Both the position numbers and the translations under genes were made by a program. The notes beneath the pieces were generated by a model that saw only the letters and a program-made list of their open reading frames with translations, was not told the origin of the DNA and did not search any database. From a virus, in IMG/VR virus record IMGVR_UViG_3300042197_003251, positions 17,018 to 81,017 of that record: DNA of 64,000 bases; one strand, given 5' to 3'. Each line of letters begins with the position of its first letter. Position 1 is the first letter of the stretch. This document shows, piece after piece, positions 1,969 through 52,689 of this stretch.

Positions 1969-3849
1969 TTATTTTGCCGAAACTTCCTCAAAATCCACAT
2001 CCTGGACTTCAGAGTTTGCATCACCTGTCATATTTGAAGCCATATCTTGAGCTTGTTGATACATCTTCATTGAAATATCTTGGAAGGTCTTATTTGTTTT
2101 TTCAACACATTCTTTGATTTTTTCAATGTTCTTGTCGGCGTTTGCCTTTTTAAGTTCATCAAGACTTTCATTAATTTGGGTTTTTTCTTCTTCTGAAATT
2201 TTATCTTCCAAATCTTTTAATGATTTTTCAACTTGGAATACAGTTGCGTCCCCAGTGTTAATTGTTTCAGCTTCTTCTTTTGCCAATTTATCTGATTCAG
2301 CATTTGCTTCAGCCTCTTGTTTCATCTTTTCAATCTCTTCTTTTGATAGTCCTGAAGATGATTCAATTCGGATATTTTGTTTTTTGTTTGTTCCCTTATC
2401 AAGAGCTGATACATTTATAATACCATTTGCATCAATATCAAACGATACTTCAATTTGCGGAACACCTCTCATTGATGGTGGAATTCCATCAAGGTGGAAC
2501 CTTCCGATTGTTCTATTGTCTTTCGCCATTGACCTTTCTCCCTGAAGAACGTGAATTTCAACTGATGGTTGATTATCAACTGCGGTTGAAAATACTTGGG
2601 AAGCTTTGGTTGGAATTGTTGTGTTTGCATTTATAAGTTTTGTAAACACTCCGCCCATCGTTTCAATTCCAAGTGATAATGGTGTTACGTCAAGAAGAAG
2701 AACATCTGTTACATCACCAGCAAGAACCCCTCCTTGAATTGCCGCTCCAAGAGCAACAACTTCATCAGGATTAACTCCTTTTGATGGTTCTTTTCCGAAG
2801 AATTTCTTAACCGCATCTTGAATTGCCGGAATACGAGTTGAACCTCCAACCAAAATAATCTCATCAATATCGCTGATTTTTAGATTTGCATTTGCCAATG
2901 CTTTTTTACAAGGTTCAATAGTTCTTTGAACTAATGGGTCAACAAGTTGCTCAAATTTAGCCTTTGTTAATGTTCTAACCAAGTGTTTTGGAACACCATC
3001 AACTGGCATAATGTAAGGAAGATTAATTTCTGTTGATTGTGAAGATGATAATTCAATCTTTGCTTTTTCTGCCCCTTCACGAAGACGCTGAAGAGCCATT
3101 GAATCTTGTGTTAAATCAATACCATTTTCATCTTTAAATTCTGAAACAAGCCAATCAATAATTGACTGGTCAAAGTCATCACCACCAAGATGTGTATCAC
3201 CATCGGTTGATAATACCTCAAACACACCATCACCTAAATCCAAAATGGATACATCGTGAGTTCCACCACCACAGTCAAATACAACAATTTTTGAATCTTT
3301 TCCTTTCTTGTCAAGTCCATACGCAAGTGCTGCTGCTGTTGGTTCATTAATGATACGTTTTACTGTAAGTCCCGCAATTTCACCAGCTTCTTTTGTTGCC
3401 TGTCTTTGGGCATCGTTAAAGTAGGCCGGTACTGTAATAACCGCCTCTGTAACTTCTTGTCCCAAATAATCTTCTGCGGTTTGTTTCATCTTTTGAAGAA
3501 CAATTGCCGAAATTTCTTGGGGGCTATACTTTTTGTCATCAATTTGAACTCTTGGTGTATTACCCTCACCTTTAACTACTTTATAAGGAACTCGTTTTGC
3601 TTCCTTTTTTGTTTCATCATAAGATGACCCCATAAAACGTTTAATTGAATTAACAGTTTTATCAGGATTTGTGACCGCTTGTCTTTTTGCTGGGTCACCA
3701 ATCTTTCTTTCACCACCTTTTGTAAATCCTACGATTGAAGGGGTGGTTCTTTTTCCTTCACTGTTCGCAATAACTTTAGGTTCTCCGTTTTCCATAACGG
3801 CTACACATGAATTTGTAGTTCCTAAATCTACACCAATAATTTTTCCCAT
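1969..3849 (-). CDS. dnaK: molecular chaperone DnaK (Hsp70)
   Basis: A full-length 626-residue Hsp70. The ATPase domain starts [19 protein letters not shown] and contains the phosphate-2 signature [15 protein letters not shown] and the adenosine motif [13 protein letters not shown]. The substrate domain follows with [20 protein letters not shown], then an acidic C-terminal lid tail ending in [10 protein letters not shown]. It would fold proteins in the cytoplasm with a DnaJ partner; a dnaJ gene lies at 30755-31681, but no grpE was seen. The wording ([27 protein letters not shown]) resembles Bacteroidetes DnaK, so capture from a host is likely. It is a single-gene unit with its own terminator. 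DnaK in a phage is uncommon but known in some large phages. Confidence 0.97.
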
Positions 3850-7632: not shown

Positions 7633-7664
7633 CAAATATACGGCAAAAAAAATGGTGAGCCAAA
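7633..7664 (-). promoter_or_regulatory. Bacteroidetes-type promoter
   Basis: TTTG, 20 nt, TATATTTG on the minus strand. The -33 element lies inside the hairpin that ends the upstream tRNA transcript, so terminator and promoter overlap. Confidence 0.7.
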
Positions 7665-7672
7665 AGCTCACC
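7646..7672 (-). terminator. rho-independent terminator of the tRNA transcript
   Basis: On the minus strand GGTGAGC-TTTTG-GCTCACC is followed by ATTTTTTTTG. It closes the transcript that starts at the tRNA promoter (7889-7919). Confidence 0.8.
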
Positions 7673-7679
7673 TTATTTT

Positions 7680-7782
7680 TATAGTCCATAGTGTTCACAT
7701 TTACCACTACGGAAGATTACGACCAGTCAAGTTGTGATTCTTACTTTATGTTGCCCGCAACAGGTGCAATCTACTTCTATAG
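7680..7782 (-). other. structured 3' extension of the tRNA transcript
   Basis: About 100 nt between the tRNA and its terminator with no gene. On the minus strand there is a GTTGC-GG-GCAAC hairpin and an 8-bp stem, CCGTAGTG with CACTATGG, that needs a G-U pair and so favours the minus strand. It could be a small RNA cut from the tRNA precursor or a degenerate second tRNA; no complete cloverleaf was found. Confidence 0.35.
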
Positions 7783-7855
7783 TTGCAACTGAAGGATTCG
7801 AACCTCCGACCTTCAGGTTATGAGCCTGACGAGCTGGCCTCTGCTCTAAGTTGCG
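7783..7855 (-). tRNA. tRNA-Met(CAU), probably initiator tRNA-fMet
   Basis: A complete 73-nt cloverleaf on the minus strand: acceptor CGCAACT/AGTTGCA, D-stem GAGC/GCTC, anticodon arm TCAGG-CTCATAA-CCTGA, variable AGGTC, and T-arm GGAGG-TTCGAAT-CCTTC. Two hallmarks of bacterial initiator tRNA are visible: the first acceptor pair is a C1 x A72 mismatch, and D-stem pair 11-24 is A-U (purine-pyrimidine). The initiator's three G-C pairs at the base of the anticodon stem are present at two of three positions (29-41 is A-U). CCA is not encoded. It has its own promoter (7889-7919) and terminator (7646-7672). Confidence 0.88.
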
Positions 7856-7888: not shown

Positions 7889-7919
7889 CAAATATACTAA
7901 TAATTTTCACATTTGTCAA
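7889..7919 (-). promoter_or_regulatory. Bacteroidetes-type promoter for the tRNA
   Basis: TTG, 20 nt, TATATTTG on the minus strand, 33 nt upstream of the tRNA 5' end. Confidence 0.7.
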
Positions 7920-7967: not shown

Positions 7968-8123
7968 ATGAGACCAAGATTAGACGAAACAAAAAAAAGA
8001 GTTAAAGTATCAATAACTCTTAGTCAAAAAATTAATAATAAATTAGAAGGAGACATAATTAACAAATCAAAATTAATTGAAAAATTATTATCGGATTACT
8101 ATGGTAAAAAAGATTTGCAGTAA
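7968..8123 (+). CDS. small ribbon-helix-helix DNA-binding protein paired with an HNH nuclease
   Basis: A 51-residue protein with a basic N-terminus, one beta strand (KVSITLS) and two helices, ending KLIEKLLSDYYGKK. This is the layout of MetJ/Arc-type ribbon-helix-helix proteins, which bind DNA as dimers. Its last 23 nt overlap the start of the HNH gene in the +1 frame. Two more genes of this type (29463-29615 and 46194-46355) also sit directly before a homing endonuclease. It may repress the cassette or act as a separate DNA-binding subunit of the nuclease. Confidence 0.7.
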   Translation: MRPRLDETKKRVKVSITLSQKINNKLEGDIINKSKLIEKLLSDYYGKKDLQ

Positions 8124-8784
8124 ATGTAGTATCGAAAAAAATACTAATGAGTTTCAAAAAAACAAATACTCCAAAGATGGATTCAGAAGTGAGTGCTCTG
8201 AGTGCTCCAAAAAAATAAAGAAACTAAAATCTAAAGAACTTATTAGAGAAGAATCAAAAAGATACAGAGAAAAAAATAGAGAAAAATTAAAGGAAAATTT
8301 CAAAATTTATTATATAAATAATAAGAAAAAAGAAAACGAACGAAGTAAAAAATATAGAGAAAAATTAAAAAACAACAAAGAAAATGCGTTACCAGTAAAA
8401 AAAGAACCGTCAGTTCCTTGGAGGGTGAAAAACAAAAATTTGTTCAATAATAAAAAAAAAGAAAAATATCAAAAAGATATCATCTTTAGGTTATCAACAA
8501 ATCTTAGAAATAGGTTGAATAATTTTCTTAAAACAAAAGGTTATAATAAAAATAGTAAAACTTTTGAAATTATAGGTTGTTCCCCTCAACAACTATTAGA
8601 ACATTTAGAAAACCAGTTTGTACCAGGTATGAGTTGGTCAAATAGAAATGAATGGCATATTGACCATATTATCCCCTTATCTTCAGCTAAAGATGAATCT
8701 GAAATATATAAATTATCTCATTACACAAATTTACAACCGCTATGGAAGGTGGATAATCTAAAAAAGGGTTGTAAGTTAATTTAA
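8101..8784 (+). CDS. HNH homing endonuclease
   Basis: A 227-residue protein. Residues 1-35 form a zinc-ribbon-like module (CSKCS...CSECS), followed by a very Lys-rich coiled segment to about residue 120. The C-terminal HNH core reads NEWHIDHIIPLSSAK, with metal-binding HIDH, and then HYTNLQPLWKVDNLKKG. A start at 8101 is chosen because the RHH gene ends 23 nt downstream and the first Cys pair follows directly. It is closely similar in layout to the HNH protein at 45593-46213. Such enzymes cut an intronless or insertion-free allele and promote copying of their own gene. Confidence 0.85.
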   Translation: MVKKICSKCSIEKNTNEFQKNKYSKDGFRSECSECSKKIKKLKSKELIREESKRYREKNREKLKENFKIYYINNKKKENERSKKYREKLKNNKENALPVKKEPSVPWRVKNKNLFNNKKKEKYQKDIIFRLSTNLRNRLNNFLKTKGYNKNSKTFEIIGCSPQQLLEHLENQFVPGMSWSNRNEWHIDHIIPLSSAKDESEIYKLSHYTNLQPLWKVDNLKKGCKLI

Positions 8785-8789
8785 CGAAG

Positions 8790-9675
8790 CCTGAGATTAC
8801 AGCTTTTATTGAGTACCTTTAGAGTCATTATTTTTTCTACTCTTATCCACAAGATTTTGTCTTGTATTACTCATCGCCAATTGGTTAGGCCAATCAATCC
8901 TTGACGATACAACTACTCTCTTACTACTCAGCTCTCTTTGAGAATGCCTTCCCAATTAATCCTTGCGAGATTAGAGGTTTTTCGTAAAAATACAGTTCAA
9001 CTTGGGGTCTCACTATGCTCAGAACATCTCTAAGCTATGTGGGCGACTTCCGTTGTACCGTGATGGACACTTTTCCTTTAATTATTTGTAATAATTTAAG
9101 TTTTGTGTCGTGGATGTGTCAGAGTAGTGGTCCACCGTAAGCTCCGTCTCCTTTTGGGCGACAGAATACTAAACTACTCCGTGAAATATCCCTATTTCCA
9201 TACTCTCAGATTACTTCATAAAGTGACCTTGGTAGGTCATCCTTAGGGGTAGTAGCGACACCACTCGTTCTCTACCTTACCTTTCGGTTTTAAGTACCCT
9301 TTGGTATTGGGACCCGCAATTGTGTAGTTGGAGCTACATTTCTTGCTTGGTTCCTATGGGTTATTCTTGTTGGTGTTCCCACCTCAACCTGACAATCCAC
9401 TTTGCCAAGTCACCTGACCACTTTCCCTACAGTGTTACCCTCGGTACTAAAGGTCTTGCGATATCCCACTTGTGTACTTGAGTTCAAATCCCCTTTCGGG
9501 TTTTTAAACCGCAACCTCCTCAACACGGGGGAAGTCACTTTATCCTACTTTCGTAGTTTATTTAAAGACCATACACGGCCCATTATCGTTTATCAGTTAT
9601 CATTATCCCGAAGGACTACTTTCACTGAATGGATAATCTAACTTTCAAAGAACTTTTCGGACATTTCCGATTTCG
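8790..9675 (-). ncRNA. giant structured non-coding RNA (candidate GOLLD/ROOL-class)
   Basis: About 885 nt with no convincing reading frame, less AT-rich than its surroundings and full of hairpins. The minus strand is favoured: it alone gives CCC-GAAA-GGG (9490-9502), ACC-GAAA-GGT (9279-9288), TCC-TTCG-GGA (9606-9615) and GCTTAGA-GATGT-TCTGAGC (9017-9035), where the last needs a U-G pair. Further stems are ACAAGA-CAAAA-TCTTGT (8849-8865) and ATTGG-CCTAA-CCAAT near 8880. Three promoters lie upstream at 9681-9912. Length, phage setting and a nearby tRNA resemble the GOLLD and ROOL RNA classes, but I could not check their covariance models; a new class is possible. Both ends are approximate. Confidence 0.7.
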
Positions 9676-9680
9676 TTTTA

Positions 9681-9712
9681 CAAATTTAAGTCAAATTTTT
9701 CGTTCTGTCAAA
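9681..9712 (-). promoter_or_regulatory. Bacteroidetes-type promoter, proximal to the giant RNA
   Basis: TTTG, 20 nt, TAAATTTG, then GTAAAACG. It would start RNA near 9675 and is the best candidate for the 5' end of the structured RNA. Confidence 0.7.
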
Positions 9713-9780: not shown

Positions 9781-9812
9781 CAAATTTACTATCTTTTCTT
9801 TCGTATGTCAAG
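9781..9812 (-). promoter_or_regulatory. Bacteroidetes-type promoter, middle of three
   Basis: TTG, 20 nt, TAAATTTG followed by GTAAAAC on the minus strand, pointing at the giant RNA. Confidence 0.65.
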
Positions 9813-47952: not shown

Positions 47953-50900
47953 TTGGCTTTAAATTTTTACATATTTTCTGCGTGTTGTAGTGGTACTTCA
48001 ACAACAAATTTTGAACTTCAAGTTCCTTCTGAATCATTTTCAGCATTTACAACAGGTAGTAGTTATTACATTTCAACTGACATATATGAAGGTTGTTCTG
48101 AATATATTTATAGTGCGGAAACTCCATCTGGTACAATTTCACAATATAATTTATTAGGTTTTACTGCGACTTCATATAGTTCTTGTACTGATTGTATAAC
48201 TTCAAATCCTTGTCCTGCTCAACCAGTTGTGACACCTTCTTTAACCTCGGCGCCGACCTCAACTCCTACTCCATCTATAACAACAACCCCAACTCTAACT
48301 AGGACTCCAACTGTAACTAAAACCCAAACTAGAACTCCAACAAAAACACCAACTCAAACTAGAACACAAACACCAACAAATACTCAAACTAACACTCCGA
48401 CAAAAACAATTACACCATCAAACACCGCAACTCAAACAAATACCCCATCAATACCACCAACTAATACCGTAACGCCATCAGTAACCGAAACCCCGACAAA
48501 TACCCCAACTAATTCTGTCACCCCAAGTATAACTCCGACAAATTCACTACAACCAACACCAATACCTACTTTTAATTATACATCATCAACTCCAACACCA
48601 ACAAGCACATTAACTCCAACTATTACACCAAGTCCGACAACTATAACATCATGCACGACTTATAGTTTTTATGTATTCACAAATTTTTCAGCAACAAGTC
48701 AATACGATGGAATATATTACAACTATGAATTAATTGATTCATCAACTTATGATGGAAAATCATTATTTTATTCACCATCAACAAATGCGGTAATATACTA
48801 TAATAGTGGTGATACAAGATGGTGTTTATCTGATTTACCAGGTGGGACATGCGTTTTATTTGGTTCAACCGAAAATTCATCATATTGTCCAGATTTGAAT
48901 AGTTCTTTTTTCTCTTCAAATCCACCAACTCCAAGCCCTTCAACTCAAATTTGTGATAGTTTTGATTTTAGCGCACTTTTTGATTGTACAATTAACCCTT
49001 CACCAACTCCGACTCCATCAGTTACTGTAACCCCATCAATAACCCCAACTTCAACCGTAACTCCAACAAATTATTGTTATGGAAAAGCAATTGATGTATC
49101 AGGGACTAGTTTCTTTTACACTTTAATAACACCAACACCATCTCCAACAACACCAAATAATAACAGAAATTGTGTAATCTCATCAACAACTGAATTTAAT
49201 ATTTTTGAAAAAAGTTTTGCAAGTTCGTATTCAAGACAACTTACAGATTGTTCAAATTCACTTACATATATAATATCAGAAGCCCTTCCGTTTGGGACAG
49301 GTGCAACATTCCAAGCAACAATTGACAATATTAGTGTCTGCGTAAATTATAGTTCAGATATCGCAGAAAACGCAATTAATATTCTTAATAGTATTGATAG
49401 TGGGGATTTATTTGAGTGTAGATTTTGTTCCCCAGTATTAAGTTTAACTCCGACTCAAACAAGTACAATTACTCCTACCATAACTCCAACAAAATCATTA
49501 ACCCCATCTAATACTTCTTGTCAACAATTTAATAAAGATTACCGATTTATTGTTGGGACTGGTTTATCAAGTAACTCATCAATATATCAAATACTTAAAT
49601 TATCTGCGGATAGTTACATTATCATTGGTGACTTTACATCTTATAATTCTTCATCGGCTAGAGGTATTGTTAAAATATCTTCAGTTACAGGTATAAAAGA
49701 TGATACATTTAATAGTGCCTCAGGATTTACCGCTGTTTCACCAACACTATTCGCTCCAAGCGAAGTAATAGAACAACCTAATGGTAAGTTAGTTTGTACA
49801 GGGTTCTTTAATGCGTATAGTGGAGTTCCTGTTAGTTATATTTGTAGATTAAATTCTAATGGAACACTTGATTCATCGGCATTTAACACTGGAACAAGTT
49901 TCAATAACTTTGTGTTTTCATTAGGCGAACAATCAGACGGAAAAATAATTGTTGGGGGTAACTTTACTGATTACGATGGAAATTCGGTTAATAGAATTTG
50001 TAGGCTTGATGTTGATGGTAACATTGATTTAACATTTAATTCAGGAGGGACTGGTTTTGATAATGTTGTATTTACAATAAATGTATTACCTGACGACTCA
50101 ATTATTGTTGGTGGTGATTTTACACTTTATAATGGAAATACATATAATAGATTAATTAAATTAAATTCAGATGGTTCAATTGATTGGACATTTGGAAGCA
50201 ATGTAGGTTTTGATAATCAAGTATTAACTACTTTTGTATCATCTGTTGGTGAAATATATATTTCCGGAATATTCACATCATTTGCGGGAAATCCTGTCCC
50301 AAATGGTTTGGTTAAATTGACTTCAGGTGGAAGTGTTGACAATCAATTTAATTTTAACTTTGGTACTCAAGGTTTATCTTCAGGATATCTAAAATCAATA
50401 ACTGAAGATTTAAATGGGGATATTTTATTATTCCCTCCATCAGGCTCTACTTTAAATGGTTGGGATTTTGGTGGTATAGTTAAAGTCTCATCAAGTGGTT
50501 TTGTAAATGGTCAAATTCAGGCTTATCCTGGATTTAATGGAACTATAACTAGTTCAATTGTTGATACTAATAATAAAATAGTTTGTGTTGGTGATTTTAG
50601 TTCATTTAATGGAATAACATCAAATGGAATTATTAGATTATTCCCATGTATAAATTCAAACGTAACTCCAACACCAACTCCAACACCATTAATTTGTCCT
50701 TACGTTATAAACACAATCATTGAAACATATCAACCCTTCTCAACTTTGGATGACGTTAATAATAGATTTACTTATGTATCATTTACAGATACCACAAATA
50801 TTTTTGTATATGACTCTAATTTAGTATTATCAAATGTTATTAACACATCTGATTATAATTCGTTTATGTTGTTCAATTATAATCATAATTTAATGTATTT

Positions 50901-52689
50901 TACTCAAACAAGTTTGGATACAATTTTAGGTTATGATTCAGTTAATCAGAATTTATTATACACTATTTCATTAACTCCAGGTAGTAATCCATCTTCATTA
51001 GCGTATGATAGTAGTTTAAATCAGATATTTAGTGTTAATACAGGAAATAATAGTATTTCAGTTATTGATTATGAGCTCGGATATTATACTGATGTTAGTA
51101 TAACTGGTTCTTGTGTTAATGGAAGAATTGCGGTTGATAATAATTCTACATCGTATGTTACTGACGCTAGTGGAGTATATACTGATGTTTATATAATTGA
51201 CGCATATTCAAACGTAACTTACTTGTCCGCAGGAACTGGAAACAATGTTGATGTTTTATACAACCCTATAGATAATTTAATATACGTGTTAGACGCGAAT
51301 GCAATACAACTAATAAGAATTAATTGTTCTACTTTAAGTGTTTTAGATACATACACTTTAAGTGCGTCTTCAGTAATATCTATGACTTACGATAACTTCC
51401 TTAATAAAATTTACATAAACTCTAATGATTCAACTGAACTTATTATATTCAATTGTTATATAAATGATGTAGTTACTACTGTAGGTAATATTAATATGGT
51501 TAGCGGTACAACTTCACAGATAAACTTTGAAAAATATAATGGATATATTTGGTATTTAAATTCATCAACGAAGGATATTAAACTACTATGTACTGACCAC
51601 ACCCCTATACCAACTCCAACAAATACCCCTACACCGACTTTAACTCCAACATCAACTAAAACACCTACACCAACTCTTACACAAACTCCAACTGTTACAC
51701 CAACTTTAACTAATACTCCAACACCTTCAACCACACCTATTCCTCCTTTAAACTTGATTAATACTTTTTCAACATCAATATCAACTTTTGATTCGGTAGC
51801 AAATTCAAATCAAATATTTGCATTTGGTCAAACTGGCTCAACCGCAACAACATTTGTTTATAGTGCGAGTTCACCATATTCGGCAATAACAAACTTTAGT
51901 GGAATTACTGGAAGCAGTTCGGTTACCGCTTCAATTACAAATACTCATATTTACAAAGCACCACACGGTAGTTCATTTATAGAAGTTATTGATATTTTAA
52001 CTTATACGTCAACAACATTAAATATTTCTGGTTTTTCAGGAAATAATGACAGCAATAAATCATCATATGATTCATCAACTGGAAAAGTTGCAATTTTACC
52101 ACTAGTTGGAAGTTCTATATTATTTATTGATGCAAATACTCAAAGTTTAAGTTCGGAAATTCCTTTATCTCCTTTGTCAGGATATAAAGGTGGTATTACC
52201 ACAGACAATAATGGTAACTTTTTTGTTGTAGGAATTGAAGGTAAACTTGTAATACTTAACTCAAGCGCTGAAACAGTTGTTAGTACAACTAATATAAGTG
52301 GAATAACGGAATATCAAACAGTAACATATGATTCAGTTAATGATAGACTATACATTTATTCTGCACCTAATAATGTGTATGTTTATAATTATTCATCAGG
52401 TACGGTTACTTATAATACATCAATTGATGTTTCGTCTTATAGTGCAAACAGTCAATCACAACAAGCATCAATTGTTTATAATCCTGACAATCAAATGGTT
52501 TATTTGGCAGTTGTAGATTTGTCGTATAATTTAATAATTGTTAAAATTAATACAAGTACAAATACTGTAGTTACTTCCAAAAATGATTATGGATTTACAT
52601 TAGGTTCGTCTGTTGTATTAAAATATAATTCAAATATTGGACTTATTCTTACAGTTGGAACTTCTTCGTTCTATTTGTTACAACCATAA
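47953..52689 (+). CDS. large fibre/adhesin with Thr-Pro linkers and beta-propellers
   Basis: A 1578-residue protein starting at TTG. This start is chosen because MALNFYIFSACC then matches MALGFQDCC of the paralogue at 55611. Residues 1-90 are a Cys-rich domain ending SCTDCITSNPCP. Residues 92-232 are a Thr-Pro linker. Residues about 526-900 hold delta-60-type (DUF5122) propeller repeats, for example GKIIVGGNFTDYDGN and DSIIVGGDFTLYNGN. About 916-1216 and 1266-1576 look like two more propellers, with another Thr-Pro linker between them. It is probably a tail fibre or head decoration that reads host surface glycans. One base separates it from its small partner gene. Confidence 0.75.
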   Translation: MALNFYIFSACCSGTSTTNFELQVPSESFSAFTTGSSYYISTDIYEGCSEYIYSAETPSGTISQYNLLGFTATSYSSCTDCITSNPCPAQPVVTPSLTSAPTSTPTPSITTTPTLTRTPTVTKTQTRTPTKTPTQTRTQTPTNTQTNTPTKTITPSNTATQTNTPSIPPTNTVTPSVTETPTNTPTNSVTPSITPTNSLQPTPIPTFNYTSSTPTPTSTLTPTITPSPTTITSCTTYSFYVFTNFSATSQYDGIYYNYELIDSSTYDGKSLFYSPSTNAVIYYNSGDTRWCLSDLPGGTCVLFGSTENSSYCPDLNSSFFSSNPPTPSPSTQICDSFDFSALFDCTINPSPTPTPSVTVTPSITPTSTVTPTNYCYGKAIDVSGTSFFYTLITPTPSPTTPNNNRNCVISSTTEFNIFEKSFASSYSRQLTDCSNSLTYIISEALPFGTGATFQATIDNISVCVNYSSDIAENAINILNSIDSGDLFECRFCSPVLSLTPTQTSTITPTITPTKSLTPSNTSCQQFNKDYRFIVGTGLSSNSSIYQILKLSADSYIIIGDFTSYNSSSARGIVKISSVTGIKDDTFNSASGFTAVSPTLFAPSEVIEQPNGKLVCTGFFNAYSGVPVSYICRLNSNGTLDSSAFNTGTSFNNFVFSLGEQSDGKIIVGGNFTDYDGNSVNRICRLDVDGNIDLTFNSGGTGFDNVVFTINVLPDDSIIVGGDFTLYNGNTYNRLIKLNSDGSIDWTFGSNVGFDNQVLTTFVSSVGEIYISGIFTSFAGNPVPNGLVKLTSGGSVDNQFNFNFGTQGLSSGYLKSITEDLNGDILLFPPSGSTLNGWDFGGIVKVSSSGFVNGQIQAYPGFNGTITSSIVDTNNKIVCVGDFSSFNGITSNGIIRLFPCINSNVTPTPTPTPLICPYVINTIIETYQPFSTLDDVNNRFTYVSFTDTTNIFVYDSNLVLSNVINTSDYNSFMLFNYNHNLMYFTQTSLDTILGYDSVNQNLLYTISLTPGSNPSSLAYDSSLNQIFSVNTGNNSISVIDYELGYYTDVSITGSCVNGRIAVDNNSTSYVTDASGVYTDVYIIDAYSNVTYLSAGTGNNVDVLYNPIDNLIYVLDANAIQLIRINCSTLSVLDTYTLSASSVISMTYDNFLNKIYINSNDSTELIIFNCYINDVVTTVGNINMVSGTTSQINFEKYNGYIWYLNSSTKDIKLLCTDHTPIPTPTNTPTPTLTPTSTKTPTPTLTQTPTVTPTLTNTPTPSTTPIPPLNLINTFSTSISTFDSVANSNQIFAFGQTGSTATTFVYSASSPYSAITNFSGITGSSSVTASITNTHIYKAPHGSSFIEVIDILTYTSTTLNISGFSGNNDSNKSSYDSSTGKVAILPLVGSSILFIDANTQSLSSEIPLSPLSGYKGGITTDNNGNFFVVGIEGKLVILNSSAETVVSTTNISGITEYQTVTYDSVNDRLYIYSAPNNVYVYNYSSGTVTYNTSIDVSSYSANSQSQQASIVYNPDNQMVYLAVVDLSYNLIIVKINTSTNTVVTSKNDYGFTLGSSVVLKYNSNIGLILTVGTSSFYLLQP
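48226..48650 (+). repeat. Thr-Pro coding repeat tract
   Basis: About 420 bp of ACT/ACA CCA-type codons coding for repeats such as TPTxTPT. Similar shorter tracts lie at about 49000-49075 and 51600-51745. They act as protein linkers; the DNA could also expand or contract by slippage. Confidence 0.7.

Follow-up and report, generated by a model that had tools for sequence, protein, structure and literature searches.

An initiator-type tRNA gene and GOLLD RNA form a recurring unit in phage genomes

Few bacterial RNAs are as large and as elaborate as GOLLD, and we know of no established function for it. According to the available text of PMC12286853, GOLLD forms a 14-mer cage, a multimeric cage being reported for env-38, which is found downstream of a Met-tRNA; phage GOLLDs often lie near tRNAs and sometimes hold a tRNA inside their linker, and ribosomes bind GOLLD in pull-downs. 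That text neither calls the tRNA an initiator nor describes a slot between GOLLD and a terminator, whereas here the pairing was counted over at least 156 GOLLDs. The literature searched, which leaves most subscription journals outside and is partly represented by excerpts, yielded no statement linking GOLLD with initiator tRNA. Related work describes a mycobacterial tRNA cluster with GOLLD that also contains an HNH gene (PMC6582537), a large abundant RNA of phage ICP1, compared with GOLLD and without tRNAs (PMC7567579), and two tRNA-Met genes of Shigella phage Sf14, neither of them classed as fMet (PMC12482277). The identity elements of initiator tRNA are treated in PMC10486304 and PMC8576571, and the former adds that initiator tRNA helps to mature ribosomes.

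We analysed a 64-kb window, bases 17018-81017 of an 81,017-base IMG/VR phage record. The sole tRNA that ARAGORN found in it is a tRNA-Met(CAU) on the minus strand (7782-7855). The Rfam tRNA model RF00005 matched from 7855 to 7783 with 63 bits (E 2.6e-11), and the match is therefore no chance event.

7783..7855, minus strand: initiator-type tRNA-Met(CAU), 73 nt, CCA not encoded (ARAGORN, Rfam and comparison with E. coli)

Read from the sequence, the acceptor end sets C1 (7855) against A72 (7784), with A73 at 7783; the next bases are CTA, hence CCA is not encoded. The D stem is G10-C25, A11-U24, G12-C23 and C13-G22, the anticodon stem is U27-A43, C28-G42, A29-U41, G30-C40 and G31-C39, and the anticodon (7822-7820) lies within the loop CUCAUAA. 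Initiator tRNAs are marked by the absence of a Watson-Crick pair at 1:72, by A11-U24 and by G30-C40 with G31-C39, all of which are found here, while the strict 3GC motif is broken at 29:41, where A29-U41 stands in place of G29-C41. G29-C41 is highly conserved among initiators, the third pair not being treated as defining, and elongator tRNAs have Y11-R24. The combination of a paired 1:72 with Y11-R24 that is typical of elongator Met and Ile2(CAU) is absent. Among the E. coli K-12 references, taken from NC_000913.3, C×A together with A11-U24 occurs only in metZ, while elongator Met and Ile2/ileX both have G-C and C11-G24; the window tRNA is 71.6% identical to metZ, 63.5% to elongator Met and 60.3% to Ile2/ileX. 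An earlier note had proposed a phage-encoded initiator tRNA on the strength of C1×A72, A11-U24, the CAU anticodon and two of the three initiator G-C pairs, the third being A-U. Every one of these features is present, and the initiator type is borne out by them and by the closest identity, to metZ; classification as elongator Met or CAU-Ile, which would have spoken against the proposal, does not apply by comparison with the E. coli references. With the E. coli metZWV tRNA-fMet the window tRNA shares C1×A72, A11-U24, G30-C40, G31-C39, the loop CUCAUAA and A73; unlike it, it is a phage gene of 71.6% identity with A29-U41 and unencoded CCA.

The minus strand, the GOLLD RNA upstream and the frequency of the A29-U41 variant did not figure in the earlier note. 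The surroundings of the tRNA are as follows.

7654..7672, minus strand: intrinsic terminator downstream of the tRNA, 8-bp stem then T run
7673..7782, minus strand: stretch between tRNA and terminator with the hairpin CCGUAGUG...CACUAUGG, common to locus L124 alone
7889..7919, minus strand: promoter-like site of the Bacteroidota type, TTG-N20-TATATTTG, lying 64 nt before the tRNA (consensus match)
7968..8123, plus strand: small basic ORF in the same cassette as the endonuclease
8101..8784, plus strand: endonuclease VII/HNH-like ORF, an antisense insert between GOLLD and the tRNA (PHROG 1035, 2.5e-21)
8788..9181, minus strand: conserved 3' domain of GOLLD (RF02032 in Rfam, 300 bits)
9182..9676, minus strand: GOLLD 5' domain, with a putative 5' end and extent set by the promoter position
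9681..9711, minus strand: GOLLD promoter-like site TTG-N20-TAAATTTG (consensus match)
9781..9811, minus strand: second GOLLD promoter-like site (consensus match)

GOLLD lies upstream of the tRNA on the same strand, 932 nt away, and matches RF02032 over model positions 1-416 of 416 with 300.2 bits against a gathering cutoff of 150. The promoter-like site before the tRNA recurs at equal distance in L124, and that before GOLLD has a similar position in nine of the nine scanned relatives with a downstream tRNA; the pattern matches 31 times over both window strands (0.24 per kb per strand), each a consensus match and no proof of a promoter. We take TTG-N20-TAnnTTTG sites to be of the Bacteroidota promoter type, and because of these sites and an SprB-repeat protein the host is probably a member of the Bacteroidota. 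Also present in the phage are homologues of Hsp70 and DnaJ, a factor resembling sigma-70, and genes for DNA methyltransferases and endonucleases. The Hsp70/DnaK gene lies at 1969-3849 of the window (8.5e-260), with the DnaJ homologue elsewhere in it, and a 1578-aa ORF at 47953-52689 (plus strand) is nearly without relatives in the phage collection, which gave two weak matches. Since two further tRNAs lie elsewhere in the record, outside the window, the tRNA studied here is not the phage's only one.

The cassette between GOLLD and the tRNA is also found in L124 and is absent from L063 and other relatives; no family match was obtained for its small basic ORF. Like known phage endonuclease VII/HNH genes (PHROG 1035), the larger ORF is an endonuclease-type insert in a phage RNA gene cluster; unlike them, it interrupts a GOLLD-tRNA unit and supplies the tRNA with a promoter-like site. 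A search with the stretch 7673-7782 matched only L124. A cysteine-rich frame leaving the tRNA was considered as a coding reading of this stretch and rejected: it has an in-frame stop, and because L124 has the stop in common, we treat the stretch as RNA. Conserved and with a strong hairpin, it may be one more small RNA.

Relatives show the arrangement without the cassette. In L063 the identical tRNA lies 17 nt 3' of GOLLD, no promoter-like site was found in the gap, and a terminator-like hairpin with a T run follows. L166, L170, L168, L183, L190, L194 and L246, some of which are copies of one phage, likewise have the identical tRNA 3' of GOLLD. In relatives the spacing is 16-17 nt, the gap lacks a promoter, and a terminator comes after the tRNA. 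The GOLLDs in front of this unchanged 73-nt tRNA are not themselves identical. The question whether related phages keep the 1:72 mismatch can thus be answered positively for close relatives, the identical tRNA occurring on several other contigs. The window and L124 are 87% identical over 1162 nt and have the cassette, the promoter-like site and the stretch after the tRNA in common, yet the tRNA of L124 is a degenerate relative of that of L123 while the window's is a clean initiator. Because regions this similar hold differing tRNAs, the tRNA in the slot appears to have been exchanged or renewed, and kept. So the window lineage acquired an endonuclease cassette between GOLLD and the tRNA, and its slot tRNA was exchanged or diverged, in either order. 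The cassette split the unit, a promoter-like site was added and the tRNA stayed unchanged, arguing that it was retained for its own sake.

Trees of the full-length RNA group the window GOLLD (8788-9676) with L123, L124 and the L063 clade; in the 3'-domain tree it stands with L123 and L124 among other GOLLDs. As the two trees place it differently, GOLLD is probably mosaic. Two further tRNAs of GOLLD loci deserve mention. The tRNA of L221, 17 nt behind GOLLD, keeps C1×A72 and A11-U24 and has lost G30-C40 and G31-C39 (TGACT/GGTCA), a natural separation of two initiator hallmarks. The GOLLD region of L347 contains a tRNA-like sequence with an initiator-like start (CGCGGGGTGGAGCAG) and a strange middle, which ARAGORN calls tRNA-Stop.

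To count the pairing we combined three search patterns, a fourth narrow one and earlier loci, which gave at least 156 distinct 3' domains, 153 of the 156 listed having 120 nt or more of flank on the 3' side; GOLLDs ending more than 15 positions before the model end and copies identical in the last 200 nt were left out. A tRNA lies within 45 nt downstream in 23 of the 156 listed GOLLDs: CAU in 20, Leu in two and unclear in one. The degenerate tRNAs of L124 and L193, undetected by ARAGORN, were counted as misses, and the window's own tRNA, 932 nt off, was scored as 'other'. Within 700 nt upstream of the GOLLD 3' domain, seven of 15 tRNAs are CAU, and the remaining tRNAs of the same loci are Met in 28 of 324 cases, both among the matches listed. 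The set included contigs fetched through a tRNA pattern; the 20 downstream and seven upstream CAU cases were all fetched by a GOLLD pattern as well. The Fisher value for the pairing (1.5e-16) ignores descent and is no fair probability. Most listed GOLLDs have no tRNA nearby, and a further GOLLD pattern gave two loci, neither with a tRNA. The slot is not always CAU, since in Acinetobacter phage Herod, outside the set, a tRNA-Asp immediately follows GOLLD. In the 635-kb phage LR745206 an initiator-like tRNA (U×U, A11-U24) lies upstream of its GOLLD.

Among the matches listed, 14 of the 18 distinct GOLLD-linked CAU tRNAs lack a 1:72 pair (CA, CT, AA, TT, AC, GA), and the other four have Watson-Crick pairs there (UA in three, AU in one). 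Several of the 18 have U31·G39 or another weak stem; the three AC tRNAs come from a group that fits the cloverleaf poorly, and the poorly fitting L230/L344/L346 group has an acceptor score of 5 of 7. We used trees to examine whether CAU stands beside GOLLD simply by descent. On the full-length tree the downstream-Met label needs four changes and the upstream-Met label two; on the 3'-domain tree CAU in the 3' slot needs ten and CAU on either side 13. The counts are rough because GOLLD is probably mosaic. The upstream and downstream arrangements occupy separate parts of the GOLLD tree. Altogether, on the evidence of gene order, the initiator tRNA gene and GOLLD are a recurring unit.

Initiator-type tRNAs are common in phages. 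Matches to E. coli tRNA-fMet (E ≤ 1e-3) occur in 302 of 50,697 records of the phage collection, and in 257 records the match covers 80% or more of its length. A pattern scan of viral tRNAs returned at least 120 stretches, and 97 distinct initiator-class tRNAs were parsed from viral loci, a set that includes host genes at prophage edges. Among the matches listed, 1:72 is open in 75 of the 97, and in 55 of the 70 situated 500 nt or more from either end of the locus. The non-pairs of the 97 listed include CA (36), TT (9), AC (7), TC (6), AA (6) and GA (6), and pairs 2 to 7 are mismatched in just 2 to 7 of them. As 1:72 lay outside the search pattern, the simple reading is that an open end is kept by selection in viral initiators. 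A29-U41 occurs in 65 of the 97, most of which were found by a pattern permitting only A or G at 29, and also in the initiator-type tRNA of a cellular contig with a purA-like ORF aboard (L308).

We also examined fourteen phage records at their matches to E. coli tRNA-fMet or the window tRNA; picked for likeness to initiators, they are uninformative on how frequent elongators are. All fourteen have a CAU tRNA, 13 of them with A11-U24. Seven have an open 1:72 (Phendrix, RHph_TM3_3_3, LR756501, S-PM2, BeanWater, Lak-B1 and LoVEphage) and six a paired one (Aeromonas phage 31, Kaldavass, XbC2, DSS3P8, CcrPW and phiEa21-4); for Vibrio 6E35.1a the tRNA was parsed off register. Like the window tRNA, those of Gordonia phage Phendrix, Mycobacterium phage BeanWater, Prevotella phage Lak-B1 and Synechococcus phage S-PM2 are phage-borne with CAU and A11-U24; their 1:72 is U×C, A×C, U×U and C×U, respectively. 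The tRNA of Caulobacter phage CcrPW is annotated tRNA-fMet and has CAU and A11-U24, yet carries U1-A72. That of Lak-B1 is unannotated, while the others are labelled tRNA-Met or tRNA-fMet. The initiator-like tRNAs of Erwinia phage Kaldavass (L318) and Xanthomonas phage XbC2 (L319) combine U1-A72 with a U73 in place of A73, which is hard to reconcile with ordinary charging or formylation. In the 735-kb phage LR756501 (L323) three CAU calls are adjacent, two of them initiator-like (U×U and C×A) and the third odd. The expectation in the earlier note that viral tRNA-Met genes are usually elongators found no support: among 25 distinct CAU tRNAs on contigs retrieved through GOLLD or a neighbouring gene, 17 are initiator-class, seven Ile2 and one Met, a sample that may lean to initiators because GOLLD itself associates with them. 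Judged by its sequence features, the initiator-type tRNA is a known kind, common in phages and masked by the plain label tRNA-Met that databases mostly give such CAU genes.

A working initiator tRNA provided by the phage is, in our view, the most probable explanation. In relatives the tRNA sits between the GOLLD 3' end and the terminator, and a joint transcript is therefore probable; in the window phage, transcription of the tRNA would start at the Bacteroidota-type promoter that the cassette carries and run to the terminator. Host RNase P and 3' nucleases would trim it and the host would add CCA. MetRS would charge it through CAU and A73, the host formyltransferase would accept it, pair 1:72 being open, and IF2 and the P site would accept it through G30-C40 and G31-C39. 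As a result the initiator pool may be enlarged or replaced during infection; the earlier note suggested that the tRNA might favour overlapping or leaderless starts. The gene, its determinants, the promoter-like and terminator-like sites, its exact conservation and its place in relatives are observed, whereas expression, processing, charging, formylation, initiation and benefit are inferred. Counting against a working phage initiator are the host's own initiator tRNAs, the break of the 3GC motif at 29:41, the linked CAU tRNAs with a paired 1:72 or a weak stem, and the two further tRNAs of the record.

The best surviving alternative, though an unlikely one, is that the tRNA serves mainly as a processing signal for GOLLD, an RNase P cut making the GOLLD 3' end and the tRNA body mattering little. 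The CAU tRNAs lie 9-23 nt from GOLLD 3' ends, and other kinds are equally near (tRNA-Leu in L211 and L228, tRNA-Asp in Herod). Where no tRNA follows, GOLLD mostly leads at once into a T run or terminator; most GOLLDs with a CAU tRNA downstream do not, the tRNA preceding the terminator. For relatives it is natural to infer that GOLLD and tRNA would be co-transcribed, with RNase P forming the GOLLD 3' end. In the window the same co-processing cannot apply alike; the tRNA, 932 nt off and with its own promoter-like site, is still unchanged. Any tRNA would serve as such a signal, yet 20 of the 23 listed are CAU, and in the upstream arrangement tRNA and GOLLD have separate promoter-like sites.

We hold it slightly more doubtful that GOLLD and initiator tRNA are one machine acting on translation initiation, the tRNA or its 30S complex being cargo or target of the cage; this estimate overlaps with that for a working initiator. 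During infection the cage would keep initiator tRNA or ribosomes at the disposal of the phage. If true, this would explain why CAU initiators, and rarely others, occur on either side of GOLLD in separate lineages.

Slightly less likely again is counter-defence, in which the tRNA would replace a host initiator destroyed by putative host toxins and would not support translation in general. Toxins that target the initiator are known: VapC reportedly cleaves it (Winther and Gerdes 2011) and AtaT is said to acetylate the charged form (Jurenas 2017). PMC10264068 argues that phage tRNAs counter tRNA-cutting defences, but also says that phages generally avoid encoding tRNA-fMet where VapC-LT2 threatens; moreover, the loop CUCAUAA is that of E. 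coli, so resistance by loop mutation is not visible here.

We regard a decaying copy or integration-site remnant without function as very improbable. Relatives in the same slot are degenerate (L123, L124, L230 and L193), but the window tRNA has a complete cloverleaf, is identical on several contigs and is flanked by promoter-like and terminator-like sites. A fresh copy of a host gene was rejected: across 84,980 genomes, the body pattern of the tRNA had its sole exact match on a planctomycete contig, evidence that is weak because the pattern is strict. Least credible is an elongator tRNA-Met or CAU-Ile2, suggested by the anticodon and the usual database label and ruled out by C1×A72, A11-U24 and the lower identity to both E. 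coli references.

What is noteworthy is the repeated place of the initiator tRNA beside GOLLD. Because the repeated partner has a well-understood job, it offers a direct lead on GOLLD function. Many phage genes labelled tRNA-Met are of the initiator type; this matters for the question why phages encode tRNAs, since an initiator tRNA does not compensate for rare codons.
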